Notes under the pieces: model-generated
What the model was told of the DNA's origin: nothing
The model's database searches: none
Seen by the model: the letters and a program-made list of their open reading frames with translations, nothing else
Program-made: the position numbers and the translations under genes
Assembly (NCBI GenBank): GCA_027603945.1
Contig: JADIIU010000092.1
Location: forward strand, 1 to 52,130
Direction of reading: 5' to 3'
DNA length: 52,130 bases
Source: Terramyces sp. JEL0728
Lineage: Eukaryota > Chytridiomycota > Chytridiomycetes > Rhizophydiales > Terramycetaceae
Shown: piece after piece, positions 1,238 to 50,997 of the stretch
Position numbering within the stretch: position 1 is the stretch's first letter
Layout of the letters: every line of letters starts with the position of its first letter

Positions 1238-2196
1238 CTATTTCCCTTGAGCGACTGCAGATTTTTGAACACTTGCAGCTTGGCCACTGGATTTCCCAGT
1301 TTGAGAGCGATTAAACGACTTGTTGTTTGAATTATCACCAGAAATCCCACCAGATTTAAACCGCATGATGTAGTTGTCTATAAGATCAACCAACACAGAA
1401 CGGTAGGTATAATCTGGAATTAAAATTACTTACATGCTGCGGAAGCAATCATTGTACCGGTTGGTGAAAGATACCCGAATCCAAATGCTTCCCCAATTAC
1501 AGCAATGACGACACCTAAATTAGCTTGACATACCCATTGAGAACACCATAATAATAGAAAATGTTTGCGGTTGGATACATTCGATAATCAAATCAATAAA
1601 ATGGATGTCTACTCCTCTTGCAAGCTTCATCTCGGCATACTTTACAATCAGCAAATCATGCAGGAAAGAAATAGCTTCACACAGCAACAGGAAGAGCAAA
1701 TTGAACCCCGGAATTGGATGGTAAATAGTAACTAGCACCATCATTGCCGTCCACAGCACTCTGAGAGTGTAGGGAATCCCCATAACCACATAGAACGCGT
1801 ATTTGGGCATCTCCATTGTCTGACACATAAAGGTAGTCATTTGGATTCTATGTAAACCGGTAATATACCTGATACCACTCTGGGCAATAGAGAGGATGAT
1901 GTGCTGCACTTCAAACCCAACGTATATCCATTCAGGGTTGACATCAGCAATAATGAACATCCAGACGACATGGGTTACCAGATCTATCCACTCTCCAAGA
2001 ATAAAGTTGAGATAGTGAGAGCGCAGTTTGGAGGTTCTTGCCTACTATTAGCCAAACCTACCAGCTTGTTTTCGACCAAGGCAAAGTAGGTGAGATGGAA
2101 CGCTCCACCCAGCATAAACACACAAATCATTTCGGCACTGCTAATGATACTGGGTTTCATGCTAAGAAACCCTTCGGTAAGCAAAGAGGTCGTCAT
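1238..2196 (-). CDS. multi-pass membrane protein, probably seven helices
   Basis: Four exons (2196-2062, 2041-1534, 1514-1434, 1413-1238) join through introns of 20, 19 and 20 nt into a 299-residue protein. Each intron has GT...AG and a CTAAT- or TTAAT-like motif, and removal restores one frame. The ATG at 2194-2196 is the first in frame. About seven hydrophobic segments are followed by a hydrophilic Ser/Asn/Gln-rich tail of about 50 residues, an architecture reminiscent of a receptor. I recognise no family. A further 21-nt GT...AG segment at 1848-1868 is in frame with no stop, so whether it is spliced cannot be decided; removal would give 292 residues. The membrane call is firm, the function unknown. 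Confidence 0.72.
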
Positions 2197-3013
2197 TTTA
2201 TGCAACTATCCTATCTTTCAGCTGTCAGGGCAAGTGAAAAACACGCGGCAAATCTCAGGTAAAGATATTACATCATCATGCTATTCGTAGCGATATAGTT
2301 ACAGCTATACCTTAAGTAGAGATACTAATCGCTATATTTCACTATTTCTTGCTATAGCGTTTCAACTTTAAGCAAAAAATTACATTTTGATGTTCAAATT
2401 ATATTTTTGTGCGGAAAAATAATATCACAATGACAAGATGCATGATTTTTAGATTTGGGAAGCTACTGGTGTTGTATTCTTAAATCCTTCATTGCAAAAA
2501 AACATTGATATTAATAACTAACTTTATTCGGTAAATTTCTACAAATGATTTGGGATATTATCAGCTATAGGGTTAAAATCTGCCGACTGACTCATTATCC
2601 CCATTCCACTAGTTGAATATTTCCATTCGCTGTGGAAAATCTGTTAAGAAACCTCTAGGAGTAACGCGACGGGATCGATTACATTGCGAAATAACGCTTC
2701 ATCCTGCGATTAGACACACTCGCTCCAAATTGGTGATTCGATCCAGAAGAGTGATTTTATTACTCACCGAAATATCTATTTTGAAGAATTCCATTTATAC
2801 TTTCCAAATACAGCCTTTATTAGCACCTACACGCTCAACAGTATTCAGATAAACTACTTTCGCGCTGTTTTAGCTCTTGGGTTCTGCTTGAAATCGAATC
2901 TTTTGGAATCTCTATTTTGCCGCACTGATGAATCAGCACATACGAGCTTCAGCCAATCAAAACCGTGTATTCTGTTACAAGGACCCTTAAGCTTGAAAAT
3001 TTTTTCCCAACGT
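2197..3013. other. intergenic stretch, divergent promoters
   Basis: About 820 nt of AT-rich sequence between two divergent starts. Reading frames present are short and lack family resemblance. No tRNA, repeat array or clear TATA box is seen. Confidence 0.5.
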
Positions 3014-3742
3014 ATGAGGGAGGTTGAACAACAGCATCGCTTTGAATTCCCCTGGAAAGTGCTAACGTTCGCAAATTGGAACAAATACCCTAATGAACAT
3101 GCTTCTCATGTTGCATCGGTGGATATTATTTCCAGGAATATTGCACCTGACGGAAAGCTGATTACTCATAGATTATTACAACTGAAGCAGCCAATACCTT
3201 CAATATTCAAGAAATTAGGAATCCCATACCCAGAATCAGCTTACTTTTTGGAGATGTCGGTCCTAGACCCTCAAACACAACAATTTGAAGCCACATCAGT
3301 TAGTTTATCTATGCGCAACTTTGTCAGAGCAAAGGAAACCTGTTGCTTTAGCCCCGACCCCGAATCTGGAGGTACATTGTTCCTTCAGAAAGCTTCCTTC
3401 ACGGCGTTTTCATTCTTTGCAAAAATCATTGAAGAAGTCGCTGTAAACAGGTTCGAAGCAAACTCTGCAAGAGGAAGACATGGACTGGAATCAGTAATCG
3501 AAAAAATATCGACAGAAATTGAAAATTTTGCACTGGGAGCAAAGGATTTTGAAACCAGGGTCGCAAGCAAAGTCAAGGAAGGAATCGTGGGACTAGAGAA
3601 GGAATATAGCACAAAAATTAATGAAGTGGAGCATCAATTCAAGAACACTCTTACTGCGGTGGAGAAGAAGATTGATGTCACGATTAACGCTGTGGAACAG
3701 TCTCTATTCCATGAGATCGATGCCGCGAACCCTTTTTGCTGA
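3014..3742 (+). CDS. PRELI/UPS (MSF1) family mitochondrial lipid-transfer protein
   Basis: A single exon encodes 242 residues. The start is the ATG giving MREVEQQHRFEFPW; the upstream in-frame extension begins only with TTG and is not family-like. The N-terminal 170 or so residues show the PRELI/MSF1 pattern: FEFPWKVLTFANWNKYPNE, HVASVDIISRNI, PDGKLITHRLL and later SLSMRNF. These proteins (yeast Ups1/2/3, human PRELID) shuttle phosphatidic acid or phosphatidylserine across the mitochondrial intermembrane space, usually bound to Mdm35/TRIAP1. The last 75 residues form a long charged helix with regularly spaced hydrophobics (EVEHQFKNTLTAVEKKIDVT), longer than in the short Ups proteins and nearer to PRELID1/LEA-type tails. 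The stop reads TGAATAAA, overlapping the poly(A) signal. Confidence 0.85.
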   Translation: MREVEQQHRFEFPWKVLTFANWNKYPNEHASHVASVDIISRNIAPDGKLITHRLLQLKQPIPSIFKKLGIPYPESAYFLEMSVLDPQTQQFEATSVSLSMRNFVRAKETCCFSPDPESGGTLFLQKASFTAFSFFAKIIEEVAVNRFEANSARGRHGLESVIEKISTEIENFALGAKDFETRVASKVKEGIVGLEKEYSTKINEVEHQFKNTLTAVEKKIDVTINAVEQSLFHEIDAANPFC

Positions 3743-3937: not shown

Positions 3938-6065
3938 ATGGACAAGTTTGTAATCCGAACAAAAAAACATTTAGGTGAGAACAACACTAACCAGACATTG
4001 ATGAAGCGTTAAAGAAATTCCAGATCCAGTCGTTCAGGAACAACCAAAAAGAAGTCATCGAATCGATTTTGAAAGGAAATGACGCTCTGGTCTTGATGCA
4101 AACTGGAGGGGGAAAGAGCTTGACTTACCAGTTACCAGCAGTAATTTCAGACGGAGTCACGCTTGTTGTTTCACCGCTGCTGGCTTTGATCCAGAATCAA
4201 GTAGATGGTCTGTTGAAACTTAAAATCAATGCAGCAACTCTAAATTCAAGTATAACACAAAAACAAAAGAGCATTGTAATTGAAATCTTATTTAGATTAT
4301 TTCGGATCTGCAGTCAAAAGCACCAGAGATTAAATTGCTATATGTTACACCTGAATTGCTCGCGACTGAGAATTTTAGAAGCATAGTAGACAAGATGTAC
4401 AGGAACAAGGTCTATGCAAGACTAGTGGTGGATGAAGCGCATTGCATTTCTGAGTGGGGGCACGATTTCAGGGACGATTATCGCAAACTCGCCTACTGGA
4501 AGAAAAAATATCCCGACACTGCAGTAATCGCATTAACGGCTACTGCAACTGTAAAGTGCCTATGTATTAATAATAGCGTCCAAAATGATATAATGAAACA
4601 ATTGGGGCTGAATGATTGCAAGATATTCATGTCATCTTTCAACAGACCAAATCTGCATTATGAAGTGCGGTTTAAACCGTTAGATACGAACGACCCAACG
4701 GAAAACGTCTTGAAATTTTTGCATAGCGTGTATGCGAAAAGAAAGAGCAGAATTGAATCACAAGCTAGTAACGAACGAGCAGAGGGTGTGTGTGGCATAA
4801 TGTAAAATCGGCTGACAGTAGTTATTGTGCTACTAGAGCACAGTGCGAAGAGGTTGCTCTGACATTACGAAACAACAAAGTCAGGGCGAGGTGTTATCAT
4901 TCTGGTTTGACACACAAAGACAGAAAGGCAATATTGGAAGCATGGACAGGAACTGATGAAACCTCTGTTGTAAGTAAACAGATGTCTGGCAAACCGCAGA
5001 AAACAGATATAATCGATGTTGTAGTTGCAACTATATCATTCGGAATGGGGATTGACAAAAAATCTGTCAGATTTGTAATTCATTGGGATATTTCAAAATC
5101 GTTTGAAGGATATTACCAAGAATCAGGAAGGGCTGGCCGTGATGGACAGCTGTCTAGATGCATACTATACTACTCTGTCCAGGACAGAGATAGGGCACTG
5201 TTTTTGATCTCGCAAAATCAAGAAAATCCAAACAACACTCAGTCTCTGGAAAGTTTCAAACAGGTGTTCTAATCTAATGTAGATGATTGCATATTGTGAA
5301 AATTACAAAAAATGCCGTCATTTGTATATTGTGGATTACTTTTCCAAACAAAAGAATAAGATGAATGATGACATCTGCCCAAAAAGCAATTGCGATATAT
5401 GCAAGAAACCCGAAAAAATCAAAAAAGCAGCTTCAGAGTACCTTTTGAAATCGAGTAATTACAAGAATACAAGTGAAAACGTGGAATCTGTATCGTTATT
5501 AGGTGGAAACTACAACACAAGTGATGGCCCCAAGCGACTAATGGACGGTAGTCTAGCGAGCTTTGCGCCATTAAAGCGCACTTTTGATGAATATTCTTCT
5601 GTCGCCGAATACCCTGGATTCCAACCTGCCAAAGAACTTTACCGAAATTCAAGTGATTTTGGAGGATTCAAAACCGCTAAACAAATACACCAAGATACCA
5701 ACCCATTTTTTGGCAAAAAGAGTAAAGATAGCAGTGAAGATGAATCGGTCTCAAAATACCCATTGTTGCACTATGACCGACACATCAAGGGAAGCACCCG
5801 TGAAAAAAGGGACAAATCAATCACTAAATTGATAAAAGCACTGGCTGAAAAGTATGACACGCTCAATCAAGAGTAGAAAAGCATTAATCATAGTGTCATC
5901 CAGACGATTGCGATTGAACTCGAGGGAAAAGCTTTTATCTCCAGAACATTATTTGTGATTTATCAAAATAGCATAGTCACTACTTTGAGAGAAATTAAAG
6001 GATTAAAGACACCGTCTGCCGAGTTGAATAATGTTTACGAAAAATATATTGCCAATAAAATGTAG
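3938..6065 (+). CDS. RecQ-family ATP-dependent DNA helicase
   Basis: Seven exons (3938-3974, 3995-4275, 4296-4555, 4577-4801, 4822-5263, 5283-5872, 5894-6065) are joined by introns of 20, 20, 21, 20, 19 and 21 nt into 668 residues. Motifs run in order: FRNNQKEVI (motif 0), MQTGGGKS (Walker A, about residue 50), VVDEAHCISEWG (DEAH, about 151), ALTATATVNVQNDI (motif III, formed across an intron), GIIYCATRAQCEEV (motif IV, formed across an intron), FGMGIDKKSVRFVIH (V) and YYQESGRAGRDG (VI). The RecQ zinc region follows (CENYKKCRH, CPKSNCDIC). It unwinds DNA 3'-5' in repair and recombination. The C-terminal 270 residues are poorly conserved, as in RECQL/RECQ5 types. The first exon codes only 12 residues, so an additional upstream exon is possible. 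The fragmentation into short frames is entirely explained by the tiny introns. Confidence 0.93.
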
Positions 6066-7659: not shown

Positions 7660-8573
7660 CTATATTTGGTCTTTTAATATGACTAGCTTTGGTTTCTTAG
7701 GAGCATTGTAAGCATTGAACTCTGATGGAGAGCTGACAGAGACAACTGAGCTGACAGAGTTCATTCTTCCTCCATTGAACGAGTTGAATTCACTTGGTGA
7801 ACCGACAGACATGACTTTGGAATTTGCAGAGCTCCCAGTTTTTAGTCTGGCACCATATACAATACTAAGGAAAATCAACGGTGGCAGGATAATCATTTCG
7901 ATAGGAATCAAGACGCCTGTCCATACCGGTCCAAAAGTATTGAGAATATACGGAATATAAGTGACAGTTCTAACCACGCATAGTAAAATTCCAAACATTG
8001 CCGAAGTGAGTTTGAGTGATTCCAGTTTCTGAGTAGTTTCGCTGAAATGCGATTGTCTAATTGAAGCAACCATAATCGACACAAAGAAAACCCCAACTAT
8101 TCCAACAAAGATGGTGTTCAAGACTGATTTAACTATCCTTGCTGTGCTTGGAAGTGACAAAAGACAAACACCGTCATCATTGTACCTCGTGGAATACAAA
8201 ATAACACTAACAATTCGTGGTATAATATCAAGTCCCCAGTATAATAATTGCCAAACTACTTTCTTCCACCATTTCTGTTCAAGCTTGTAAACTCTAATCA
8301 AAAATATCCAATCCACGAGTGCTTCAGCGACATTAAACGAAATTCCCTGGGATTAATTGTGACTACCTGCATATACCATACTGCACATTCAGTAACTGGA
8401 GAAATATTAATAGCAAGTGTAATGGTGGTATTGATAATCAGCAAAATTCCAAAGACACATTGGAATATCGCAATTTCTGCACGCTGCTTGAATCCGTAGT
8501 ATATCAATAATGCGATTCCGTTTATTATTGCAACTGTGAATTCTGCTATCACAGCGACATAGGTTGGTGTCAT
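7660..8573 (-). CDS. seven-transmembrane protein, family B (tandem copy 1)
   Basis: Two exons (8573-8367, 8346-7660) are joined through a 20-nt intron (GTAGTCACAATTAATCCCAG) into 297 residues. The start MTPTYVAVIAEF aligns with MPTLTPTFVAVIVEF and MTLTFIAVCTEF of the next two genes. Seven hydrophobic segments carry family marks: VDWIFLIRVYKLEQ (TM3), GLDIIPRIVS (TM4), CLLSLPSTAR, and VTYIPYILNT (TM6). The C-terminal tail has two copies of a SPSEFN motif. The two tandem paralogues lack the intron at this exact site. Function is unknown; receptor-like by topology. Confidence 0.8.
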
Positions 8574-8581
8574 TTGGGGAA

Positions 8582-8627
8582 AATATTCTCGAATTATTCT
8601 CAAAATATTCTCAATATTCTCAATATT
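8582..8627. repeat. short imperfect tandem repeat (ATATTCTCA)
   Basis: About four or five imperfect copies of a 9-11 nt unit related to AATATTCTCA lie directly upstream of the family-B copy-1 start. Probably a small microsatellite in the 5' leader. Confidence 0.6.
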
Positions 8628-8820
8628 TCAAGGAGCAAACAGCTGTCCGAAAACGTTTGCATAATTTACTACCAACAGCAGGATGATAAAGTCAATCCAC
8701 AATTAGATTAAAGAAGGCTATTTATCTTTCTATTCTTTTTGTTCTTGTGATCCCTAAAAAGGAAGCTACCGCAATTGCGGTTAAACTGCAGTCAAAAATA
8801 GAAAAGAGAAAAGAATTCTA

Positions 8821-12470: not shown

Positions 12471-14694
12471 ATGAACACATTTAAAATCCTGATTGCAACA
12501 GACAACCACATTGGGTTCATGGAACAAGACCCGATCAGGAGCAACGATTCATTCCAGACATTCGAAGAGATTTTGAAATTGGCAGTGTCCCACAAAGTTG
12601 ATTTTATTCTCCTTGGTGGTGATTTGTTCCATGACAACAAACCTTCTCGAAAGTCAATATTCAATATAATGACCTTGGTTAGACAATATTGCTTTGGAGA
12701 TGGTGAATGCCATGTTGAATTCTTGTCGGATCAATCAGTGAATTTCTCCAACAGGTACGATAGCACTTACTAGATTCGGAACTGTAAATTATCAAGACCC
12801 AAATTTTAATGTAAAAATACCTATATTTTCAATTCATGGGAATCATGACGACCCTTCGGGAGATGGAAACTTGTGTGCACTGGATATACTCTCAGTTTCT
12901 GGATTGATCAATTATTTTGGAAAGCAAGCCCAAGTGGATGATATTGAGATTAATCCATTGTTGATGAGAAAAGGGGATAGCAAATTAGCAGTGTACGGAC
13001 TGGGAAATATCAGAGATGAGCGACTGCATCGCACATTTGAAAAACAAAAAGTGAAAATGCTCAGACCTGTTGAAGATACAGAAGAATGGTTCAATTTGTT
13101 TGTGATTCATCAGAATAGGTTCGTTTGAGCTAATCTAGAATTGCCCATTCGCAAAAGAACTATATTCCTGACAGATTTCTGGATTCCTTTTTAAATCTGT
13201 GTCTATGGGGCCACGAAGTAACTTGTACTCTAATCGATAGCACGAATGTCTGATTGAGCCTCAAGAATCAATCAACAACTTTTTCATCACACAACCAGGT
13301 AGGAGGATTATAACCCATAGGGTCCTCGATCGCTACATCGCTCTCTGAAGGCGAATCAGCTCAAAAACACGTTGGGATATTAAAAATTACTGGGCAAGAA
13401 TTCCAGCTTGAAAAAATTAAATTAAAAACAGTAAGGCCGTTCATTATGGACAATGTTGAACTATCAAAGGTAGAAGGTTTGGATCCTGGAGATAAGGATA
13501 GTGTTTCTTTGTACCTAAGAAGAAAAGTATTTTCTTTTTGATGAAGGTTGCCAAGATGATTGCAAAAGCAAAGCAAGAGTGGCTCGAGTTGAATTCAGAC
13601 AAGCAGGAAGCTGATTTTCCCAAGCCGTTAATTAGATTAAGAGTGGAATATAGCGAAGGATTTACAACTTTTAACCCTCAACGATTTGGACAGAATTTTG
13701 TAGAAACAGTTGCAAACCCAAAGGATATCTTGCAGTTTTATCGTAAAAAGGTGCCTAGAGGTACTATGCATGTAACATTAGCGAAAAGAGCTGCCCCGAA
13801 CCCCCAAGATATGCTGGATATTGAATCATTTCTGCCTGAAAACGTTGAAGAAACAGTGGTGGAAGATTTTATTGCGGACTATTTAAATGCACACAAGCTA
13901 GAGATTATACCTGAAAACCAATTCACCGATGTAATTGAAGATTTTATCCAAAAACAAGACAAGGAAGCCATTTCAACGTTTATTGACGACACAATTACAA
14001 AAACCAGAGAAATGATTGAGTTGGACGAAAACCTTGAGGTTCCTAGATTGAAAAGAATTATCAAGAATGTCAAAGAACAGCGTGCTGAGGAATACTCGAA
14101 TAAAGTTGGGAAAAAGGATCGCTCTGTTTCAATCAAGGCTCCGATGACAATGAATTTACCTCAAAACAAGTGGAAAAGAGCTAAAAATGTAATTAGTCAT
14201 AATAATAGGACCAAGACGATTTTGAAGATGAAGAATATGTATATGTAAACGAAGACGAGAAAAAGAAACCAGCAAAGAAAGCGCCAATTACAAAAGCCAG
14301 GCCAAAAGGCACAAGAGGAAAGAAACATGTGCAGGAATCTGAAGAAGAGGAAGATGTTGATATGTCTGAAGATAACCAGGAAGAAATTGAAGAGGAAGTT
14401 GCACAAAAGAAACGAAAGACTTTGGAAGTTGAAGGCCAGCCAAGAAAGCGTGGACGAAAAGCTGCAGCAGTTGACGAAGCAGTTTCTCCACCTGCTGTTG
14501 AAAAGCCGATTCAAAGATCAAAATCTAAAAGATTGATTGTAGACGAGGATGAAGAGATGCAGCCTGTTGTTGAACAAAAAGAACCACCGAAAAGAAAAGG
14601 AAGATTGCTTCCAACCAGCTTTGCCTCGTCTGGCCCAAAGAAAAAGAAGGTGGTTCGTCAGTCTACCTTAAACTTTACACCGTCCCAAAGATAA
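12471..14694 (+). CDS. MRE11: MRE11 double-strand-break repair nuclease
   Basis: Seven exons with introns at 12755-12773 (19), 13119-13138 (20), 13218-13240 (23), 13299-13320 (22), 13527-13546 (20) and 14189-14208 (20) give 699 residues. All phosphoesterase motifs are present: ATDNHIG (I), [14 protein letters not shown] (II), SIHGNHDDP (III), FVIHQNR (IV), and WGHEHEC (V), the last formed exactly across the 23-nt intron. [14 protein letters not shown], a hallmark of MRE11, is formed across the 22-nt intron. The core is followed by a Glu-rich then Lys/Arg-rich tail ending [19 protein letters not shown]11 with RAD50 and NBS1 resects breaks and activates ATM. All metal-binding residues expected from the family are intact. 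Confidence 0.96.
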
Positions 14695-15991: not shown

Positions 15992-18900
15992 TTATTGTCC
16001 ACTGCGGGAAACTACTCCTTGCACATCCTTCCAAATTTCCAACTTCTTGAATGGATGCGGTTCTAACGATGGCAAGAAACCGACGTGGCAAAGATAGCCG
16101 AAATACAGCGACATCAAGTCGTGCATGTTTGGATTCCTTACCAAGGAGCCAGCAATAATTTCGCGTGTGAATGAATCATCCAGAGTTGGGCTCTTTGTCG
16201 AAGTTGGCAGGTCATCAAGGACAAAATGTAATAATGGGAATAATGCATGATCTGACGTGGATAGAGTTAGTTCAAGGAGAGATGTGCGCCAATGAATATA
16301 TTCGGTTGGTGCAACCTTGTAGTTGTGGATGAGACTGGCAAACAAATCATCGAATTTGAAACTAGATTAATGAAACAGTATACCTGTGTGAGTTCCACGT
16401 GTGGAACACTCCCAAGTCAAACGATTTGGGGTTTCCCGCAACTTCTAGGACCACATCGGCCACATAATCAACAGAGCACATATTGACAACGTTGGACATT
16501 CTCGGAGCTTGTTGTAGCTGGATACATCCCTTGATCAATCTCCAAATGAAATCATCTGTGTTGGTAACACCAGTAACTGAGTCGCCGACAATATATCCAG
16601 GTCTAATAATTGTTGCAGGCACACCTCTTTGGCGAGATCTGAGAATTAATTGTTCGGCGACCCACTTGGTTTGGCCATAACCGCTTCTCAAGCCATGTTT
16701 ACTTCCTTGCATATCATCGTTTTCATATACGGAGGTGCCAGTTACCAACTTATTTACATAGTGCTCAGTATCAAGGACAGACGTAGAAGAGACAAAGTGA
16801 ATCGATTTGAGGTGGTGCGTGGTTGCAGCTTTGAGGGCAGTAAGAGTACCAACCACATTTGGTCCCTTTAGTTTATGATATGGATAAACCCAATGCACCT
16901 AGAATTAGCCAGAATTGTACCAAAGCACCATTGTGAATAATAATGTCCACAGATTCGCAAATTTGAGTCCAGCGATCTTGAGCCAGTCCAAATCGTTCGG
17001 CAGCCAAATCACCGCACACGCCGATAATTTTGTCGTTCAATGAATCATTCCACACCAAGTGTCGCTTGCAATTTTCTTTGACTCTTTCAAATGCATCGCC
17101 TTCTGTTTTAGCACGAACAAGGCAGATCATTTTTGATTGAGGGAATCTCTTTAGGGCACTTGCTATAATAAAGGCTCCCAAGAATCCGGTAACACCAGTA
17201 ATAAATAAGGTTGGGTTTGGAGTGGATAGCTTGGAGATATCAAAATCAGCCAAATCACCTTTACAAATGGTTGGGTCATCAACTTCCTCCAAATCAGCTG
17301 CGTAATCAAAGATGACTTCTGCATTCTGAGTTTCATTATTCTCGCGTTTGATTTTTTCAAGAGATTCGTCGCTATTTGGTGCTGCTGCTGATTGAGTCAT
17401 GTTCAAGTCTCCTCCTCTGAGGTAGTCTACATCTGCAACCATATCTGATAAAACAGGCGATCGGTAGACCATTCCTAATGGTGCTTCAACGGCCAAAGAT
17501 TTGCGGACTTCAAAAACCAATCTAGTGGCAAGAATAGAGTGTCCTCCAAGATCGAAAAAGTTGTCTTCCAGAGAGATTTTTGAGCTTTCGACATTCAACA
17601 AATTGGACCAGATATCTCGAAGAGAATTTTGCAGTGGAGTCAAAGTATCTTCTGCTACTTTGGAAGTAGCTGCTGCAAGCGCAGTATCTGGGAAAGGAAG
17701 CGCATTCTTGTCGATTTTTCCATTTGGTGTTAGTGGCATTCTAGTCAATGGCACAAATACAGAAGGGATGGCATAGCTTGGAAGTTTTTGTTTCAGGTAA
17801 TCCCGGACGTCTTTGATAAACAAGCCAACATCTTCCCCTATTCTTTCTAGCGGAACAAAGTAGCAAACAAGAGTCTTTTCTTCGTACTTGTCTCTTCTTA
17901 CCAATGTAACATTTTCCCGTATTTTTGGATGCTGGGATAAATGAGTATCGATTTCCTTTAGTTCAATTCTAAATCCTCTGATTTTGACTTGGTCATCAGT
18001 TCTCCCGGTGCATTCAACACATCCATCGGGTAAATACCTTCCTAAATCACCAGTACGATATAATCGGTCTCTGGCGCCAAAGTAATATGGAATTGATCTG
18101 TCGCTTTTTGGAGGAGCAACAGCGAAAGGATTGTCAATGAATTTTTCTGCAGTTACTTCAGGGAGACCCAAATAACCTTCTGCTAAACCACCACTTCGGA
18201 CATACAATTCACCAACTTCACCGACACCAGCCAATAATCCGTGGTCGTTAATTACAAGTAACTGTACATTCTTCATGCCAACGCCGGCAGGCATGATATC
18301 CTTTTGTTCAGTTAAATAACCAGGATTGATGGACATTGGAGGGATTTTCAAGAATGACACAGCACGCTGAGTTTCGGTGGTTCCGTACATATTGATAACA
18401 TGAGTGTTTGCTGCTAGATGCTGCAGTCGCAATACATCTCTCTTTGTTAAAACATCACCAACAAAGAAGGCATGGCGCAATGATGGGATTGGATGGGTAG
18501 CGTTTGCAGAAAGTAGTTGGCCCATCGCAGGAGTCAAGTGGGTTATTGTGATTTCTTGTTCTGCCATCCATTCGGCCAATTTGCCAGGGGTACCAATGTT
18601 TTCAGCTGTTGGGATACAAATCTTTGCTCCCAAAAATAGAGGAGTAAAAATATCTCTTTGAATTGGATCATGAGCGATTCCCGACAGCATAGTGAAACTC
18701 TCCTCTTCAGTCATATTGAACTCCTCCTTCATCCACGGATAGAAGTGAGTCAACGAAAAGTGTCGTCCGCGAACACCTTTTGGAATACCAGTCGAGCCAG
18801 AGGTAAAACTAAGCGTTCCTACACTATCTGGACCGATAACAACTCCAGGATGCTGCGATGCTTTGGAATAAGAGTCTTGCAACACATCTGCAGCCCCGCC

Positions 18901-33046: not shown

Positions 33047-33136
33047 CTTTGGAATTGAAAATTTTTCAGAGATTTCAAGGTTTTGGACTACAATCCGGAC
33101 ATGGCCATTTTGGAATATCGAGGAAATTCGTTTATT

Positions 33137-33976: not shown

Positions 33977-34069
33977 GTATTTCTGGAAACTTTAACAAAT
34001 GAACTGCGAACTTTGTCGGGCGAAATTTTCCGCTCTTAACAACACTTTTTTATTTTGAAAAGAAATAAA

Positions 34070-36859: not shown

Positions 36860-39800
36860 TTACTTGTCTTCTTTTACTATGGATAGCCCAGGAATGAAAT
36901 ACTTTCTTCCAGGCTGGAATTTAACTTGAGTTGGCTGATTTTCAAATATTTGCAGCGCCGTTGGAGTAGTTTGTGGCCTTTGGCGATCAAGAGAGCCTCT
37001 AATGTAGCCCAGTTCAAAAGCAGAGTCTTCAGCGCTGGTGCTAGTGTGAATGTTCCTTGCCTTTCGCCTTGTGTTTTTATTCTGCTTGATTACGACCATT
37101 GATTTCGGCTCTTCAAATGGATCTAATCTGACTTGTTCGACTGGCATAGATTTGTTTATCGTTTTCAAATGTACTGATAAACTACTGTTTACAAAGCCTA
37201 CGTATTTTGGTGGTTCAGTGTACTCTGGGAGATAACCTACTTTCAAAAGGTAATTACGAAGCGTAACATCAAGCATCTCCCGGGAATGGTGGCAGCAACT
37301 CTGGTGTGTTTTCCCGATGCCTTTGGTGTTCATTTCTGAGAATTTCAACTTTCTCGCTGGTGCTTGGGCTTTTGCCAGTGCAGCTTCCTTTGCTTCTTTT
37401 CGTAGCCGCAACCGCTCTTTTCTTTCATCTTCCAGTGCTTGTCTTTCTGCTGCTAATTTAGCCTTTCTTTCTATTTCTTCTGCCTTTTCCCGTGCAGTTT
37501 TTGCGTCTGCTTCTTCCTTTACTTTTCGAGCAGCTTCTCTCTCTTCCTTCAAGCGGCTCTCTTCTTTAATTCTCGCTTCTTCCTCATAGAGTGTATAGTT
37601 GATTCCATCCACATAATCAGCTATTGTCGGATTCTTCAAAGTCGGTACAGGATCTCCAGCGGAGTGCACTGCTGGCGATTGTAGATTTAGCTATATCAAT
37701 TGAAATATACCGATGGGTAGTGTTTTAGGTCTAATTCTGTCCCGTAATCTTTAACTCTCATTTCATAAACAGCTGTTTGAACATTGTTTGCCTTGAATTG
37801 GAAGCTTGACGGCTCTTCTTTCAAAAAGTTTCTTTCAGGCAAAGCGTATGGAACACTTGGGTCATACTCGATTGTTAGGGGTGCAACAGCATCTATGATT
37901 AACAAGGAATACCCTGTTTCTTTTTCTTTTTCTTTTTCCTACCATCAGCAAGTTCGATTTCTTCCCCAAAGATGGACAATTTTTGAATTGTGGAGGCAGT
38001 GTGCTGGTCGGAAGCACTATTCATCAAGTAGTTTTTTAGGTTTTCTTGCAAGAACTCAACTAGTAATTTTCTAAGTGGGTCTTCTCCTTTTCCTGTTCCA
38101 AATACAGTATTATTCATTTCAATTACTTTGAACTCGTCCAAAATATCTTCAAGCTTCTTTTTAATAAATGGGACTTCGATGCAAGTAACTCCAACTGATC
38201 TGAAATACTGGAGACACTTGAATCTGTAAATTACATTGCATTTACTTGAGACTATCATACAAGGACAGCGTGTGAGGCAATAGAGCGATAAATAGGTTGT
38301 TGTCATCACAATTGAGTTGCAATAGCAAATCAATTGTTTGAATCCTCACCCGCATATCTTCTGAATCACTAACTTTAGGTACCGCAAGCAATCCACAAAA
38401 AAATTCAAACATAACCAGCGTTTTTTGAAATCCGTATTCTGAGCCTAGCCACTTGATATACTGCATTAGTTCTGATCTTTTTTGCGATGGTATATTGGAG
38501 AATGTACTGACAAGTATTGGAAAGAGATCATCTGGCGACCCGCCAATTCTCTGAGATTAGTGCAAATTACCGGATGCTTCATTAGCTTTCCTTTCCGGTT
38601 CTTGTATATTGTTTCAACATATAGGTTATTCTCTTGGTATCCTTGTGGATGGAACACCTAACGGTTAAAATTGAATACCAGGTCCTCTGGAAACCATTCA
38701 TAATTCATTAAACGCTCTATAGTTTCAGGGATTAACACTTCTTTAATTTCTTTTTCAATTGGAGCCAATTCCACATGCTTCAATTGGTGAGGAGTGCCAA
38801 CTCGTAGCTTGGCCACCTCTTCCTCTTCCTGCACCGTTTCTTCCACCTTCTCCTCCAATTTTTTGGTTTCTTCTTCCTTCATCTCGTCTTCAACCATTTT
38901 TTGCATCAGTTCTTTTAGCCGATTTTTATAATCATTACTTTTGGCTGATTTGTCTTCTTGTGTCTTTTTCTTTTCCTTTGGTTTCTTTTTCTTAAATGCA
39001 TGAATTGCAAATTGTGGTTGATCTAATTTTCCATGGTCTTTCAGCCATTTGTGCACTTCTTTGCCAACTTTAGAGTTGGGTACGATCCCATCTGGCGCGA
39101 TATTAAGCTTCATGTTTGGCTTTATGTCTTTGAATTCGTCTGAGTTAGTTATATCCAACCATCTGAATCCTCTGATTCTTCTGACTCTTTAAGGGGCTTT
39201 TTGGTTTGTAGTAATTCTTGCAATTCTTGAATTGGTACTATATTTTCATTTTCAAGGGCATTTTGTGCTAGCTTTGCGTTCAATTCATTTTGTATTGTCA
39301 CTTGTCTTTCCATTTCTTCCTTATGTCGCTTATATAGCTTTTCTCGGACTGTGTGCTCAATGTTTTTAAGAAATTCGTCCAATTCATCAACGACTGGTTC
39401 ATACTGTGTTGCCAATGCAGTTTTGGTATCGAATACTCCTTTTCTTCTAGTATTTGATACCTTTTCAAACCATTTGATATTGATTTCTGTAAAAACCTCA
39501 AGTGGATTTGTCCTGTCAAAAGTGATTTTTTCTCGTTCGCTTGCAGTTTTCTTCTGCCCTCTTGTAAAAGGAATTAAGCTATCGTCGAATAGCAGAGTAG
39601 TTTCTCCTTTATCTTTCGATAATGGTGGCCTAGAAGACAAATGCGACGGTGGTAAATCTACGTTAATAAAGGTCTACAAGTTGAACTTTTGACGAGGTCA
39701 ATTCTATTTTCCATTCCAATTAGTAAATCTGCTCTTTCGTTGGCCAGACACAGTCCTTTTATTGGTTCTTGGAAGTGCATTTCCCGAAGCATTTTGTTTT

Positions 39801-42517
39801 GATGATTCCAAATCCTCAAAGAATTATCATTGCTGATCGACATGAAAATCCCAAGGACAGGACTGCTGCAAATCGCAGTAACAGTTTGAGTGTGGTCGTA
39901 GCTTTTTGCATGGCCAGTCAAAATTCGCCATTCTTGTCTTTTTAAGTTGTATTCAAACATATGAATAGTAGCATCATCGGAATTCGTACAGACAATATTC
40001 CCCATATTACATAGAATACGCGGGATAAAGTTAATTTGAATATCAATTCTGATCTGAATCAAATTTGGATCCAGCGGTTTCACTGTGGATATTCTGATAT
40101 GCTCATCTGCATTAAATTAAAAATACCAACTCCTCCAGTGATCAAAGAGTGATTTACAGGATCATATTCCATTTGAGTGAATGCACCAAAATGTAGCTGA
40201 ATTATAAATGAATTACCTGATATCTATCAACTATTTTACCGCCTTGCCCAAACACCAACACATGCCCATTTTTAGTTCCACCCAGCAAAATCCCAAAATC
40301 TCGGAGGGATTTGGGACAAATGGCTCGATCCACCTCGTCAAATATGCCATGACACACTATCAATTGACTGCAATTTTCAATTCCTTGATTAATACTGACT
40401 TACTGGTTTCCGATGTATTCCAAACGTCTACAATGGTGCATGGATTTTGATCAGTTCGGAAAACCCAAATTTCTCCCCCTTCAAGCAATACAAAGAGACG
40501 GTCCAAGTTAGGAATAACTACCTATCATCGTATAGTATGCGACGTCTTGCACAGTATCTGTTTCCAATAAGGGCAGGTTTGCAGTAATCGTCCTGCCATT
40601 CACGGGGGAGAGTATTCGATTTACCCCATCGGATGTCCTGGCAATAATTCTGGAAAATTTATTGTCAATTTTCGGTACATATATTAACCTAGTTATATTT
40701 GAGCTGGATTAAAGTATTGACAAACCTCATTGATGTGAAATTAACGTTGAATTGATTTGTCACCCAAATTTCTATTGTTGTTCTCGTTCTAATATACAGA
40801 GTAACTTCATCGATTAGTTGCATATCGACTGGCAAATCCTTTAAATGTAAACTAGGTAAAACTGTTTGCTACCAATTGATTTCCTTGAAATACTTGAGAT
40901 TGTACAACCTAATGGTGTAATCCAACCCACAAGAAGCAAATAACGGTGAATTTGGAAAGACTGTAATTGCAACTACTTGCTTGGCATGCGCGACAAAGGT
41001 GTGGACTGCAGCCTTCACGATATTTACGACTTTGACTGCAGATTAATGATCAAGTACTAGTTCCATCCACGCTCCCAACCATAAGATATTGATACTCATC
41101 GTGGTAGCTAATCGACGTAATCTTGCGAGAATGTATCTTTTTCAAGTGGTGAAGGAGTTCTCCGGTTTGCAAACTATAATTCTTTGTTAACGATAAATAC
41201 ATAGATGTCTGTGTTGATAACAACATACAAAAGTCCCTGTTTTCCTTCAAAATGTATCATGTCGATCCATTTGTTTGGATTTCCAGGCATTGGAACAAAA
41301 GAAAACCGTAATGTTGGCTGAATACACAGCATTCCTCTGGTCACTGTTGCTTCCAGATCCCAAACAGTCGCTATGTCCGTTCCAACAGCGATGAATAAAT
41401 TCGAAATTGGCTCATAATGAATATCTATAATCAAATGTGGGGTCCTAAGAAGACTTGTAATTTCTAATTTCGAAGTAAAGAATTTCACTGTTTTCTGATT
41501 TGATAATCCAGCATATAAAAAGTATCTACTCAAGAATGTAATGTGGGAGAAATTATCGTGCATTTTGATTGACAATTTTGGTTCTGCATTGGTGATATCC
41601 CAAATAGTCATATATCTGTTGCTATCTAGAGTAGCAATAGAGTATGATTTATTCTTGGAGGTGACTACTTTATCTTCAAACAAATCTTCCTCATCTTCTG
41701 CAACGTCTTTGTAATCTTTTCGGTCGTAATCTACCTCAACTTCATGTCCAAAAGATCCATCTTGATAGTGAGTTGGAATTTTTAAATGGTGGCAAATGGT
41801 GGTTATCTGTTGCGGTCGCCTCAATACTTGCTGGCATTTCAACCCCTGCATAAGGCATTGCTGGTATGGAACCACACTGTCATCTTCCTCATCTTGCTCT
41901 GGGGTAAAGCCATGGATATCATTTGCAGCTGCAGATACAACTGTTGCTCTAAGCTTTTGCCAATTGTTTCTTGCTCGTTGGCTCTTCCATTTGTGGTGGA
42001 ACACCAATCTTGTAACATATTTTCCAACAGAGACTCTATTTAAATTAAATCTGGTTGGAGCTATTCCTGCATGAATTAAACCCTTTAATTTTTGCTGCTG
42101 GGCCTGATGACGAACACGCAAACTATTTGACAGGTAAAGAGACTCTTTTTCTGTCAGCTCGATATTTGCTGCTTCTGCCCCGGTGATCGTATAATGCATT
42201 TCCTTGTCTGAACTGTCAGTAAATAGCGATGAATAACTGGAGCTGGTTTGGGAGAGCACTTTTTCCACATGCAATTCCAATCCATTGTCAAATTGAAAAT
42301 CTACTTTGTGACGTCCCTTTGCGGTATGAGGTCGAGATCCAAAGGTAGAGTTTGAACTTTTACTATGCCTGGATGCAGCGCTTCTGGGTCTTTCTGTGGA
42401 ATTAGGTCTCGAATTTCTGCTGATCATGTCAACTAAAATTGCGTCACTTGAAGACATACCAAATTGACAGTTTTGTATTACAACAGCAAATCTATTCAGC
42501 ATCGATGAATACCTCAT
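36860..42517 (-). CDS. giant WD40-repeat protein, probably axonemal (WDR87/WDR97-like)
   Basis: Sixteen exons with introns at 41182-41200, 41036-41057, 40852-40872, 40704-40725, 40522-40543, 40384-40403, 40197-40216, 40107-40126, 39658-39677, 39140-39159, 38658-38678, 38551-38570, 38224-38245, 37893-37912 and 37691-37710 (19-22 nt) give 1782 residues; starting at the inner ATG (42457, MSSSDAILVDM) gives 1762. About residues 270-900 hold many WD-like blades (IATLDSNRYMTIWDI, FASCGLDYTIRLYNL, SISNDNSLRIWN). Then come charged coiled coils, a helical segment (MQYIKWLGSEYGFQKTLVMF), a Lys/Glu helix and a C-terminus ending KYFIPGLSIVKEDK. The layout resembles WDR87/WDR97 proteins of motile cilia; that match is from memory and tentative. 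The nearby CIMIP2 gene fits a flagellar role. Confidence 0.8.
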
Positions 42518-42657: not shown

Positions 42658-44232
42658 ATGCTAATTTGGAAATCCAGAATTCACACACAAATTGAAGCTG
42701 TAATAGGGCTGGAAGTTCATTTGCGACTTAAAAGCAAGCAGAAATTATTTTCAAATGCAAATTCGTATTCCTATTCTCCAAATTCTCCTCAAAGTATTGC
42801 TGCATTTGATTGCGCGATCCCAGGAAGTTTGCCTGTACATCATGATAATACTAGGTGATTAATCCTGATTGTATCAAGTTAGCTGCTCAAGCAGCCTTGG
42901 CATTGAATTGCAACATAGCTCCCAAATTAACCTTTGACCGGAAGCATTACTTTTACCCTGATTTACCAAATGGTTACCAAATTACGCAGTATTTCAACCC
43001 TTTTGCTGTGGGCGGAAAGCTGGATCTATTACGGATTGATGGTGTACAGGAACCACTATCAGTGGCAATCGAACAAATTCAAATAGAGCAGGATTCGTCA
43101 AAATCAATTAAAACCGGCAGTGAAACACTTTTGGATTTAAATAGAGCTGGAATTGGTATATTGGAAATAGTCACCAAGCCAGAACTACATAGCTCGAACG
43201 ACACAGTGGTTTTCTTGCGAAAATTGCATCAACTGATGTGGTACCATGGAGTAACTGATGTGAATATGGACGATGTACACTATATTTAAATAGGGATCAT
43301 TCAGATGCGATGTCAATATTTCTGTGCGGGAGGTTGGGGATGCTTTGGGTAATAGAGTAGAGCTGAAGCACTTGCACAAATTTTCTGCAATTGGAGCTGC
43401 AATAGGTATATTCCGCTAACACCTGATTACGAAATTAAAAGACAATCAAAGATGTTAATGGAAGGATCGCAAATAAATCAAGAAACAAGAGGGTATGACT
43501 TGACAACCGGCGAATCGTTCGTTTTGAGAGAAAAAGAAGGAGCTGACGAATATTACTTTATTCAGGATGGTGACATACCCAAAGTAAATATAACAAAGGA
43601 ATATGTAAAAGGAATTGAAAAATTGATGCCGGAAGGACTGGATGGAAGAAGAAAACGATTGCATCAAGAATTAGGGCTGTCTCTTGAGCATGTTGACATC
43701 TTAATGTCGGAACCAGGAGCAGTAGAGTATTTCGAACAGTTCTTGATCTTGCTGCAGTCGCCTAATTATGAAGCAAAGTCTCTCGTTAACTGGGTGACTG
43801 GTGAATTAATGGGGATGCTGGGCAAAGAGAAACTGCGAATCATTGATTCACCTGTTGATACAGATAGACTGGCACTTTTGGTTGATTGTGTTTTGGATCA
43901 AAAAGTATCAAGTAAGCCGCAATTAATCGCAGGTGTATCGGCGAAAAAGGTTTTGCAAATGATGGTCCAAGGGAATTCATCGACCCCGGATGAAATTATT
44001 ACCAATCATGGCTGGATGCAAGACAACACAATCCAGCTCGATGATATATGTGCGCGAGTTATAGATCAAAATGGAGACATAGTAAAGCAAATTAATCCAG
44101 GTTGACAAAATTAAGAAAGGAAAGACGAGGTTGTTATCCCACCTGATCGGCCTTGTGATGAAGGAAACTAAAGGAAAGGCAAATCCGCAGAGTGTTTCTA
44201 AAGCATTAAACCAACTGCTGTTGAAACAATGA
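42658..44232 (+). CDS. GATB: glutamyl-tRNA(Gln) amidotransferase subunit B (mitochondrial)
   Basis: Five exons (42658-42834, 42855-43274, 43294-43405, 43426-44081, 44101-44232; introns 20, 19, 20, 19 nt) give 498 residues. [19 protein letters not shown] is the GatB signature. It is followed by [20 protein letters not shown] (the B-subunit motif), [29 protein letters not shown] (across an intron), YEIKRQ and the YqeY-like tail with [14 protein letters not shown]. With GatA and GatF/C it converts Glu-tRNA(Gln) to Gln-tRNA(Gln) in mitochondria (yeast PET112). The third intron (43406-43425) ends TG instead of AG, the only such site seen. Every other acceptor fails to restore the frame. Confidence 0.93.
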
Positions 44233-44266: not shown

Positions 44267-45291
44267 CTAGTCACGCTTGTTTGGTTTATGGCCGCTATAC
44301 CCCGGGATAGGTGGTGTTTTTGTTAAATCTTTTGGAGGCATAGAGGGTAATACAATGGGCATACGCCTAATTTAAACAAATCTTACCCCTTTGGATCCCT
44401 ACTGTTGAATTGGTCATATGCATGTTCGGCTGTTTTTCCAAAGCTCATTGAATAACAAGTCCTTCCGCCTGGGATAAACCCAGTAAACCCAGGAATAGGA
44501 TCTGTAGTTACTTGCTTAGGTTCGCAATGCTGGAATCGTTTAGGATTTACATAAGGATTGACTGGCGGAGGAGTTTGAGCAAAGTCTTCAATGGCTTCTC
44601 GTACAATACAAGAGTATGGCTATATTAAATCTGTTTACTTCTCCAAAATGGTGCTGTAGTCTAGGCACGAACCCAGTATATCCACTGATAAATGTTTTTT
44701 GAGGATGGCCAGCTGGCAGCTTGTATGGTGACAATTCGTCAATGACAGACTGCGCATAGGGGTCAAAACACGTCAAATGTGCTGGCTTTGAATCTTCAGC
44801 GGCCACTTCTTTTCCACATTCCCTTTTATTTTTTCTATTTGATTGAATTGCCAATACTTTTGGAGGAAGGGTATTTTTGGACCTCAGCATTCTCTGAAAA
44901 TCTTTGAGTGATGCGTTTGTTGCTTCGACGAATGGCCTGCCAAAGTGATCTTGCGATCTCGGGATATAACCTATCGTCAATCGAGGATACCTGTGTATCC
45001 AGGGACTGGTGGGAAGGAGAATCGGTCATCTCCTGTTGCATATGTGGTTTTTCTTGCCCACACATACTTTTTTTCTTCATAGGGAATCTTTGAATCAGTG
45101 TTCTCGGCAGCTGTCCTGTGAGTCTTCCTTGCCAGCTCTGTTTGTATTGCTCCTTTTTTCAGAGATGGATCGGTTTTAAGAATTTCCCTCGTTGCATTGC
45201 CAAATGTCATGCCAAATTTGCTAGACATTGAAGGGACAAACCCAGCAAATCCAGGTGTAGCGATACAAGTGGTTTCGTTTTGCATTCCCAT
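44267..45291 (-). CDS. CIMIP2/FAM166-type ciliary microtubule inner protein
   Basis: Four exons (45291-44991, 44970-44639, 44619-44387, 44366-44267; introns 20, 19, 20 nt) give 321 residues. It carries repeated Pro-Gly-Tyr/Phe-x-Gly-Phe/Tyr-Ile/Val-Pro motifs: TPGFAGFVPSMSSKFGMTFG, PGYTGYIPRSQDHFGRPF, SGYTGFVPRLQHHFGE, PGFTGFIPGGRTCYSMSFGK, and PGYSGHKP at the end. This is the signature of proteins that sit inside axonemal doublet microtubules. Several repeats are completed only when the introns are removed. It is good evidence that the organism makes a motile flagellum. Confidence 0.87.
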
Positions 45292-46504: not shown

Positions 46505-46653
46505 CAGGACGCGTTTAACTTTTCAAGAGTAGGATCACAGTTGGATGTAGAGGAAATAAACCAACTAGAGATTCACGACATGGTTAAAGTCTTACGTTCA
46601 AGAGCGGATTTTAATGGGGAAACAGATCGTCCCAGATCATTAAATTACATTTA

Positions 46654-48244: not shown

Positions 48245-48916
48245 ATGAAGTACGCACTCCTATTCGCCTCTGCATTTGCTCACATCCACTTGATGAGTAT
48301 TGTTTCCAGGGGTCTCAACAAGACAACAATTGTAAGTGCGAAAAGTGCACAACCTTTTCCCCAAAGACAAACCTAACCATAGGGCAACGAAGACGAAGAG
48401 GGAGAATCAACTGGCCCTTGTGGGGCTCTCGATGGTGTCCCATTAACTGCTCCTACAGTTAGAACTTCCCTCCCGCTTAATTTCACTGTTGATTTCCAAC
48501 AAGCAGACGATGCAGCTCAAGTCTGGGTGTACGGAGCAGTAGGGGACAATCCAGCTCTGGGCACTGCTGCTTCAAAGAACTTTACTACTCTCCTGTACTC
48601 TTACAATTCCACCAAAGCTGAAGATTTGAACATTACTTTTGATTTTACAAAACTGGCTGGTGTTAGCAAGACTGACCCTACTTCAGTCACCCTTCAATTC
48701 ATCCAATTGTCGAATGAAAAGCCGCCAGCAACGAGATATATCTGTGCTGACTTGACTGTCGGTGGAAACGGTCCATTTGGAGTTGTTACCAGTTTGAGCA
48801 ACAGCACTGGCCCTTCCACCACGGGAACCACTGGCGCTGCAAAGCCAACTACTACCAACGCAGCTGCAGCTGTTGGTGCATGGCTGTTTGCTGCAATTTT
48901 ACCATTCATGATTTAA
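48245..48916 (+). CDS. X325/BIM1-like secreted, GPI-anchored protein
   Basis: Two exons (48245-48331, 48383-48916) with a 51-nt intron (GTAAGTGCGA ... CCTAACCATAG) give 206 residues. A signal peptide (MKYALLFASAFA) is followed by HIHLMSIVSRGLN. Cleavage before the His would expose an N-terminal copper-type histidine, as in LPMO-like X325 proteins. STGPCGALDG, FTVDFQQADDAAQVWVYGAV and RYICADLTVGG fit the X325/BIM1 domain. A Ser/Thr/Ala-rich stretch and a hydrophobic C-terminus (AAAAVGAWLFAAILPFMI) indicate a GPI anchor. Relatives bind copper at the cell surface, and the Cryptococcus homologue takes part in copper uptake. Stop and AATAAA overlap. Confidence 0.8.
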
Positions 48917-48927
48917 TAAACTTTATT
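48915..48927. terminator. bidirectional poly(A) signal between convergent genes
   Basis: AATAAA (48915-48920) and TTTATT (48922-48927) are separated by one base. They overlap both stop codons (TAA at 48914-48916 on plus; TAA on minus at 48923-48925). Only 6 nt separate the two coding regions. Confidence 0.7.
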
Positions 48928-49855: not shown

Positions 49856-50103
49856 TTCTAGATCAAAAAATTAAATTTGGAAAATACTCACAAATCTTTA
49901 AATCTACTACTGAATTTATTGTGTAGTTTGTTCATTTCAGATAACCAATGGAATCTTCATTTACATTATACTAATCTTAGATTTTTAATCTGAACATTGA
50001 TCGCTGGGTCTCCATTATTCCTTCCTGAGAGAAAAGTAGTTGCATGGATATCAAAAAATAGCTTTGCTGTAAGAAATGAAAATGTTTGCAGTTTGCTTTT
50101 TAA

Positions 50104-50997
50104 ATGGGAAAATTCAATCTTGCAAATGCCAGACAGATTCTAGCACATTATAGAGACGAAATCCTTCCAGAATTCCCGGAAAAACAAACAAGAACTTACG
50201 ATCCAATCTTGGTAAAAGAGTTGGGAACGACAATCATCAATCAATATCAAAGCTCAGTTTCCAAACCAGAGTATTTTGCAATTTACGAGCAAACGCTAAT
50301 TTCTTACGTTGATACAGGTATTATGTGCTAATATAGGTTGATTGCGATTAACTATTAGGTATTCATTGTTGATAACAGGCGATTACGAAAAAGCACAAGA
50401 ATTATTAAATTTTCTAATTTCTAAATTCCCACCAGAGTATTCAAGGGTAAAGAAGCTAAGAGGGCATTTATACGAAGCGCAAGGTATTTCTTGATTGATG
50501 GAGGCAAATTCCAAGAAGCCATAAAGTTGTATAACGAGTGTCTTGAACTAAATCCAACAAATATGCCCATCCACAAGAGGAAGATTATGGCTTATGTGTC
50601 AATGGGAGATACTCAGAGGGCGATAGAGTTGCTCGTAACTTATCTGGACACATTCATGCAAGATACGGAAGCATGGGTAACACTTGGTAATTTGTATCTA
50701 CAAACTAATGCTTTCCAGCAAGCTCTATTTTGCTATGAAGAACTAGTATTGTTAAGACCGTCGACTCACCTGTACTTGTTGAAATTAGCAGATTTGTATT
50801 GTGCGGTTCGCAAGTACGATATTGCCAAAAAGTATTACTTGGGTGTAGTTCACTCTTTGCCAGACTGTTTACATGCTTGGTATGGTGTTTATTATTCCTG
50901 CAAGAACTTGAAGGAAGACGGAGACTTGTTTGATTTGGCCAAAGAGCGTATTTTACAATTAGCTAAAGGTCCGGCCATCCAAAAGGTCTATAAATAA
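50104..50997 (+). CDS. EMC2: ER membrane protein complex subunit 2
   Basis: Exons 50104-50317, 50379-50483 and 50504-50997 give 270 residues. TPR-type repeats match EMC2: ISYVDTGDYEKAQELLNFLI, YEAQGKFQEAIKLYNECLEL, AWVTLGNLYLQTNAFQQALF, LLKLADLYCAVRKYDIAKKY. EMC2 is the cytosolic scaffold of the EMC, which inserts membrane proteins into the ER. Its stop overlaps AATAAA, 8 nt from the convergent neighbour. The first intervening segment (50318-50378, 61 nt) is three consecutive GT...AG units of 19, 22 and 20 nt with no bases between them. The second (50484-50503) is 20 nt. Confidence 0.9.
50318..50378 (+). other. three back-to-back introns in EMC2
   Basis: Units 50318-50336 (GTATTATGTGCTAATATAG), 50337-50358 (GTTGATTGCG ... 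ATTAACTATTAG) and 50359-50378 (GTATTCATTGTTGATAACAG). Each has its own GT, branch-like CTAAT/TTAAC/TGATAAC and AG. Removal of all 61 nt restores TGDYEKAQ across the join. Removing any one or two leaves a frameshift or stop. Confidence 0.75.

Follow-up and report, generated by a model that had tools for sequence, protein, structure and literature searches.

Genes and introns of the window

The window analyzed here is one whole contig of 52,130 nucleotides (nt) from the assembly of Terramyces sp. JEL0728 (15.0 Mb, 231 contigs), a chytrid of the order Rhizophydiales and family Terramycetaceae; an initial annotation of the same DNA had rightly taken it for fungal. This study concerns the introns of about 20 nt that interrupt its genes. 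The 85 short introns called in the window comprised 18, 39, 16, 10 and 2 introns of 19, 20, 21, 22 and 23 nt, respectively. The initial annotation had counted 80 introns without giving coordinates. The intron-containing genes were placed as follows.

1238..2160, minus strand: gene (gene finder); four introns, 2042-2061, 1848-1868, 1515-1533, 1414-1433
3938..6065, plus strand: RecQ-like helicase, 668 residues (gene finder; Pfam DEAD, Helicase_C and RecQ_Zn_bind); six introns, 3975-3994, 4276-4295, 4556-4576, 4802-4821, 5264-5282, 5873-5893
7660..8573, minus strand: gene for a membrane-like protein (gene finder); intron 8347-8366
12471..14694, plus strand: MRE11-like, 692 residues (gene finder; domain matches Mre11_DNA_bind and Metallophos); seven introns, 12755-12773, 13119-13138, 13218-13240, 13299-13320, 13527-13546, 13761-13781, 14189-14208
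15992..20183, minus strand: LYS2 (alpha-aminoadipate reductase), 1368 residues (gene finder, homologues); introns 19795-19814, 19092-19112, 16899-16920, 16362-16383
22096..23046, plus strand: gene (gene finder); introns 22206-22226, 22326-22344, 22501-22520
23314..23775, plus strand: cytochrome b5-like gene; introns 23429-23447, 23511-23530, 23532-23551, 23681-23702
24178..26927, plus strand: LKR/SDH-like bifunctional lysine enzyme, 882 residues; introns 24367-24389, 24640-24658, 25231-25249, 25668-25687, 26176-26195
26967..27772, minus strand: gene (gene finder); intron 27725-27744
27818..32475, plus strand: ABC transporter (MRP-like), 1465 residues (gene finder, homologues); 13 introns, 28180-28198, 28455-28474, 29103-29122, 29409-29430, 29698-29717, 29975-29993, 30504-30523, 30691-30710, 30982-31001, 31152-31170, 31404-31423, 31611-31631, 32208-32227
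32505..36178, minus strand: predicted as a single gene (gene finder), judged a fusion of neighbouring genes; seven tiny introns, 36099-36119, 35977-35995, 35753-35772, 34171-34191, 32979-32999, 32932-32950, 32778-32799
36860..42457, minus strand: WD-repeat protein, 1756 residues (gene finder, homologues); one GT..GG intron (below) and 15 GT-AG introns, 41182-41200, 41036-41057, 40852-40872, 40704-40725, 40384-40403, 40197-40216, 40107-40126, 39658-39677, 39140-39159, 38658-38678, 38551-38570, 38224-38245, 37893-37912, 37691-37710, 37237-37257
42658..44101, plus strand: gene; introns 42835-42854, 43275-43293, 43349-43368, 43912-43932, and two doubtful ones, 44058-44076 and 44082-44100
44267..45291, minus strand: gene (gene finder); introns 44971-44990, 44620-44638, 44530-44550, 44367-44386
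50104..50997, plus strand: EMC2-like gene; introns 50484-50503 and 50948-50968, and a 61-nt stretch (below)

The lengths named in the initial annotation for the RecQ, LKR/SDH and ABC proteins were reproduced exactly; LYS2 and the WD-repeat protein had been given as 1375 and 1782 residues, and these two figures did not hold. All three motifs that had been read across joins (WGHEHEC, GIIYCATRAQ and NGALVHWVYP) were produced. By eye, 7660-10886 on the minus strand carries three similar-looking genes for multi-pass membrane-like proteins in series, with one, no and no intron.

Lengths of the introns

Introns were counted in 252,130 bases, namely the window plus twenty 10-kb stretches taken from contigs 1-10. 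The DNA was scanned by motif only, with no gene models, for GTAAGT, GTATTT or GTAATT followed by TAAY and AG, and three control words were scanned alongside. The donor words piled up at 19-22 nt, whereas the control words did not. A gene finder with a flat prior, which required only GT and AG and took every length of 10-200 nt as equally likely a priori, yielded 106 introns, of which 39 were 19-23 nt long. In contrast, with five other dinucleotide pairs used as decoys in place of GT-AG, just 3-5 of 68-85 introns fell in this range. When the site motifs were learned and the lengths were still uniform, 223 of 390 introns were of 19-23 nt, and the others were thinly scattered over 10-200 nt.

The final run, with a learned length and very small exons permitted, gave 393 introns in 140 predicted genes. 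The lengths of 379 were 18-23 nt with a mode of 20 nt (6, 97, 169, 73, 30 and 4 introns of 18, 19, 20, 21, 22 and 23 nt), and 345 of these 379 fell within 18-21 nt; like the ultrashort class, they show a narrow spread of lengths around or below 21 nt. Introns were present in 107 of the 140 genes, at a density of 1.97 per kb of coding sequence. The 294 short introns outside the window showed the same length shape as those within it, and all 379 sequences differed from one another. If the sample is typical, the genome total is about 23,000 introns (393 per 252 kb, extrapolated to 15.0 Mb). The tiny-intron pattern in this chytrid is real. The earlier statement that nearly all introns are of 19-23 nt with a mode of 20 is right; "all" is not, as a few longer introns are supported.

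Longer introns

A gene finder that has learned short introns could have missed a sizeable class above 24 nt, so that the true lengths would be broader. In a further run, introns up to 350 nt were permitted over 306,404 bases, and the gain in score was expressed in nats. Only four genes gained more than 17 nats, with five long introns:

48332..48382, plus strand, window: 51-nt intron (gain 30.3 nats)
RPS3-like gene: 45-nt intron
L004 954-1133, minus strand: 180-nt intron in a DEAD-box helicase gene
L015 2764-2978 and 3082-3204: 215-nt first intron and 123-nt intron of a gene matching Ribosomal_L30_N

We take the last two genes to be DBP2-like and RPL7-like; the matches themselves show a DEAD-box helicase and Ribosomal_L30_N. 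Yeast DBP2 likewise has a long regulatory intron. In all five, the branch A is followed by 6 nt. Within the 123-nt RPL7 intron lies a box C/D RNA that resembles snR39 most closely among the Rfam families (28.7 bits against a gathering score of 40, E = 0.0014), and this snR39-like RNA is likely the reason why the intron stayed long. According to the available part of a survey (PMC8476143), the RPL7 intron position is kept in 82% of the fungi surveyed, and in eight intron-poor species the intron encodes such a small nucleolar RNA (snoRNA). At the Rfam gathering score, no snoRNA was found in 206,804 bases (one tRNA only), and nothing was found in the window.

These five introns are real, and two uncertain calls with gains of about 10 nats (173 nt in L038; 176 nt at 11720-11895 of the window) and a 56-nt intron with which Prp18 is best read, at a gain of only 0.8 nats, also speak for a broader distribution. 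However, the flat prior keeps the peak at 19-22 nt, the 45-200 nt class held 41 introns with GT-AG against 39-58 with the decoys, and the longer search exceeded 17 nats in the above four genes only. We therefore regard a sizeable missed class as unlikely. The remaining long-intron calls gained less than 6 nats each. Several long-intron calls join apparent neighbouring genes in our judgement, and the 84- and 66-nt calls within 32505..36178 (gain just 3.9 nats) are probably artefacts. One call of 38 nt (gain 16.5 nats) was better read as a 20-nt GT..TG intron. Judged from these genes, the spliceosome of Terramyces can handle longer introns too. Since rare longer introns persist, 20 nt seems to be a lower limit that most introns have reached and not a length imposed on every intron.

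Anatomy of the introns

A variant of the gene finder that admitted any donor and acceptor dinucleotide was too permissive for counting non-AG introns and was used as a control only. With no dinucleotide required, GT was chosen 313 times and no other donor more than 114 times; AG was chosen 308 times and no other acceptor more than 103 times. The donor began with GTA in 90% of the introns; A at +4 was found in 53%, T at +6 in 59% and G at +5 in only 21%. The commonest branch motifs were TTAAT, CTAAT, TTAAC and CTAAC, and 17 of the 379 short introns had no scored motif.

Among the 360 motif-scored introns, the branch A was at position 13-16 in 338 (mostly 14-15), and 4-7 nt (mostly 5-6) followed it in 346. 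The main classes, given as nt up to and after the branch A, were 14+5 in 19-nt introns (n = 79), 15+5 (n = 79) and 14+6 (n = 72) in 20-nt introns, and 15+6 in 21-nt introns (n = 42). The distance from donor to branch was mostly 13-14 nt. A pyrimidine tract has no room in introns of about 20 nt.

Protein continuity and the deposited gene models

Joins in LYS2, the ABC transporter and the WD-repeat protein (32 tiny joins and one 94-nt call) were compared with the deposited Terramyces models and with proteins of other chytrids. The predicted LYS2 was a 99% match to the deposited protein of Terramyces sp. JEL0728. Deposited models agreed with the prediction at 23 of the 33 joins. In the first comparison, the foreign proteins numbered 15 for LYS2, 8 for the ABC transporter and 7 for the WD-repeat protein. 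At seven of the ten disagreeing joins, the predicted join fitted most foreign proteins gaplessly; 28180-28198 (0 of 8 fit) and 37237-37257 (2 of 7 fit) were left undecided by them, and the tenth is the 94-nt call (below). In a second count, pairwise alignments were made with 8, 7 and 7 foreign proteins, hand-picked from the upper part of lists of 120, 120 and 16. By this count, 31 of the 32 tiny joins were gapless within six residues in at least one foreign protein, and 29 of the 32 in at least half.

The deposited LYS2 contains seven extra residues from read-through of the in-frame 21-nt intron 19092-19112 and, next to the 22-nt intron 16899-16920, is missing the conserved stretch VHWVYPYHKLK. 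The deposited WD-repeat protein has seven extra residues at the in-frame 21-nt intron 37237-37257. The initial annotation had expected gene finders to shred such genes. This was borne out in part: the deposited models read through two 21-nt introns and delete parts of exons elsewhere, but they splice as predicted here at the 23 joins.

Because these models translate two in-frame introns, one may suppose that the segments are simply tolerated in the message, the in-frame ones being translated and the others bypassed by frameshifting or due to sequencing errors. However, the length is not a multiple of three in 300 of the 379 short introns, and 207 of the 379 contain an in-frame stop (44 of the 79 with in-frame length and 163 of the 300 others), the gene finder itself favouring stop-bearing introns. 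Furthermore, the segments have fixed GT, AG and branch motif, the inserted residues are absent from homologous proteins in most cases, and the deposited models themselves splice at the 23 joins as predicted here. This explanation is very improbable.

Insertions or deletions (indels) were also scored along the alignments. The deposited Terramyces proteins (P0001, P0121 and P0241) had indels at 9 of the 32 tiny joins, compared with 3% elsewhere (p = 4e-7). At the joins predicted in Terramyces, the models of Boothiomyces macroporosus had indels at 7 of 28 (6% elsewhere, p = 8e-4) and those of Boothiomyces JEL0838 at 7 of 15 (7% elsewhere, p = 3e-5). The excess was not significant in Globomyces JEL0801 (13 of 32 against 28%, p = 0.077). 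No excess was observed in Globomyces pollinis-pini, Gorgonomyces, two species of Batrachochytrium, Entophlyctis or Spizellomyces, nor, with only 4 joins each, in Polyrhizophydium, Rhizophlyctis or one metagenomic protein. The simplest reading is that Boothiomyces would have the same kind of introns in matching positions, where its annotation also goes wrong. Since the deposited models of both genera show excess indels at the joins, the tiny introns are probably a family-wide trait. This means that public gene models of Terramycetaceae contain systematic errors.

Putative tiny exons and unusual intron ends

Four places depart from the simple pattern.

23511..23551, plus strand: two 20-nt introns on either side of a putative 1-nt exon (the G at 23531) in the cytochrome b5-like gene
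50318..50378, plus strand: 61 nt that must leave the message of the EMC2-like gene, as GT..AG units of 19, 22 and 20 nt or as one intron
40503..40521, minus strand: 19-nt GT..GG intron in the WD-repeat gene, with the branch A at position 14 (from homologues)
L011 8332-8351: 20-nt intron ending TG in a gene for a membrane-like protein

Cytochrome b5-like gene: Removal of 40 nt gives EEIGHSDDAR and a gapless alignment to solved cytochromes b5, whereas removal of 41 nt would shift the frame. This alignment suggests a 1-nt exon.

EMC2-like gene: Residues 23-245 of the predicted protein align with residues 21-242 of solved EMC2. Each of the three units has GT, a branch motif and AG. Such a three-way split occurred in just 4 of 22,923 GT..AG segments of 54-69 nt in the sample (at 3 places), and that of EMC2 scored best, although its middle unit scores poorly, on a par with the lowest-scoring introns called. 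The stretch suggests head-to-tail mini-introns; a single 61-nt intron is possible.

Introns without AG: The two exceptions end in GG or TG at the usual distance from the branch. These ends may be base errors in the assembly. A 94-nt call in the WD-repeat gene was wrong; homologues show that only the 19 nt of the GT..GG intron leave.

Splicing machinery

The initial annotation had proposed an inspection of U1, U2, U6, SF1 and U2AF. U2 small nuclear RNA (snRNA) was found with a family match of 140 bits and the usual GTAGTA branch-binding stretch. Slu7, Prp18 and the helix-hairpin domain of SF1 matched above their family cut-offs. A U2AF65-like gene scored 251.7 bits, short of its family cut-off (310.3); the search was a six-frame one, in which introns interrupt the genes. 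Slu7, Prp18 (with the 56-nt intron) and the U2AF65-like gene were read as whole proteins after intron removal. U1 and U6, the other items of the proposed inspection, were not recovered (below). U6 matches at 27 bits (L030 and L031; contigs 199 and 111) were near-identical repeats without the U6 core.

Removal by means other than the U2-type spliceosome was also considered, either elimination at the DNA level, as with the internal eliminated sequences (IESs) of ciliates, or a minor-type spliceosome. The donor-to-branch distance of Terramyces favours such means, being far below the 46-50 nt or so required in human splicing according to the available parts of PMC11291888 and PMC6692369; an estimate based on the B complex is about 52 nt (PMC6692369, same part). 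However, the ends and the branch motif are of U2 type, U2 snRNA has its usual branch-binding stretch, the longer introns carry the same motifs, and retention of a branch site is not expected under DNA elimination. We judge this possibility to be extremely small.

Proposed mechanism

The tiny introns are very probably spliceosomal, as the initial annotation had proposed, and of U2 type, shrunk to near the space needed for the snRNA contacts. This reading is supported by the GT-AG ends, TTAAY or CTAAY at a near-fixed distance, the 31 of 32 continuous joins, and the U2 snRNA and SF1, Slu7, Prp18 and U2AF65-like genes. The 5' splice site reads GTA(A)NT and the branch TTAAY or CTAAY; the branch A lies mostly at 14-15, and mostly 5-6 nt separate it from the 3' splice site. 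The spliceosome would remove such introns from the RNA. The contacts at the 5' splice site, taking up roughly the first 6-8 nt, would abut the U2-branch duplex (about 6-7 nt) with almost no spacer, and the short distance from the branch point would set the 3' splice site. A length of about 20 nt would be a physical floor reached by deletion, because some introns with a likely function, in the RPL7 (snoRNA-like) and DBP2-like genes, stayed longer. The state may date back at least as far as the ancestor shared by Terramyces and Boothiomyces.

Several points weigh against this reading. The branch motif and the 3' profile were partly learned by the same model that selected the introns, so that the tightness at the branch and the 3' end is in part a product of the model; this does not apply to the motif-only scan or to joins that proteins determine. 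One of the 32 joins, 28180-28198, has no gapless foreign support. U1 snRNA was not found in the genome by the Rfam model or by a 12-base 5'-end pattern, nor was U6 snRNA by the Rfam model or two conserved-core patterns; both may have diverged or may be absent from the assembled contigs, and the U6 gene might be interrupted. The prediction that Slu7, Prp18 or U2AF65 had been lost as an adaptation failed, as all three were matched. In yeast, Slu7 and Prp18 matter less when the branch and the AG are near. RED_N was not found, a result that does not show its absence; human RED and Smu1 are required when donor and branch are close together, according to the available part of PMC6692369.

More tentatively, the spliceosome of this chytrid family might have an altered geometry, with no spacer between the 5' splice site and the branch and with the 3' splice site counted 5-6 nt from the branch. 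TG or GG would then be used where AG is missing, back-to-back introns could be excised, and exons of one or zero nt could exist. We consider this extension possible but rather doubtful.

Comparison with known systems

The matches listed in the open literature, which lacks most subscription journals, included no report of such introns from fungi or Rhizophydiales, in line with the initial annotation, which named no fungal case. The available parts of PMC11649378 and PMC5364385 do not mention chytrids and describe chytrid genomes without intron lengths, respectively.

If the present reading is correct, the limit of splicing is brought into a lineage related to well-studied fungi, and what sets the minimum intron is open to biochemistry and structure in Terramyces, whose strain JEL0728 is presumably kept in culture. 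Human splicing fails if fewer than about 46-50 nt separate the donor from the branch (available parts of PMC11291888 and PMC6692369), whereas Terramyces would manage mostly with 13-14 nt and a spliceosome that is, as far as tested, well stocked.

Ordinary fungal introns share with those of Terramyces the spliceosomal type and the kept RPL7 intron position with its snoRNA; in Cryptococcus neoformans, introns with a mean of 63 nt are called relatively short (PMC8476143). Stentor coeruleus has introns of 15-16 nt with the branch A mostly at position 10 or 11, and its 8806 introns lie in 18% of the genes, mostly one per gene (PMC9505925). The two systems are alike in GT-AG ends, a strict GUA, AT-richness, a fixed branch A, a 5-nt tail, conserved snRNA (in Terramyces, U2) and a free-living host. 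However, Terramyces is an opisthokont with introns of 18-23 nt and the branch A mostly at 14-15; each kb of coding sequence has about 2 introns, and some long ones have been retained. Mikrocytids likewise have uniform ultrashort introns, of 16-17 nt; Mikrocytos mackini is a parasite with 224 introns and a highly reduced spliceosome (available part of PMC10245619). In contrast, Terramyces has about 23,000 introns by extrapolation and has kept Slu7, Prp18, SF1 and a U2AF65-like gene. Chlorarachniophyte nucleomorph introns, at 18-21 nt (cited in the available part of PMC10245619), have almost the same length range, but the nucleomorph is a relic endosymbiont nucleus and Terramyces has a 15-Mb fungal nucleus. 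The lack of longer introns reported for Stentor and mikrocytids does not extend to Terramyces, with its five supported introns of 45-215 nt. The Terramyces introns appear to work like the known ultrashort ones but differ in this feature; they would therefore represent a separate case with a geometry of their own, found in a fungus whose genome is rich in introns.

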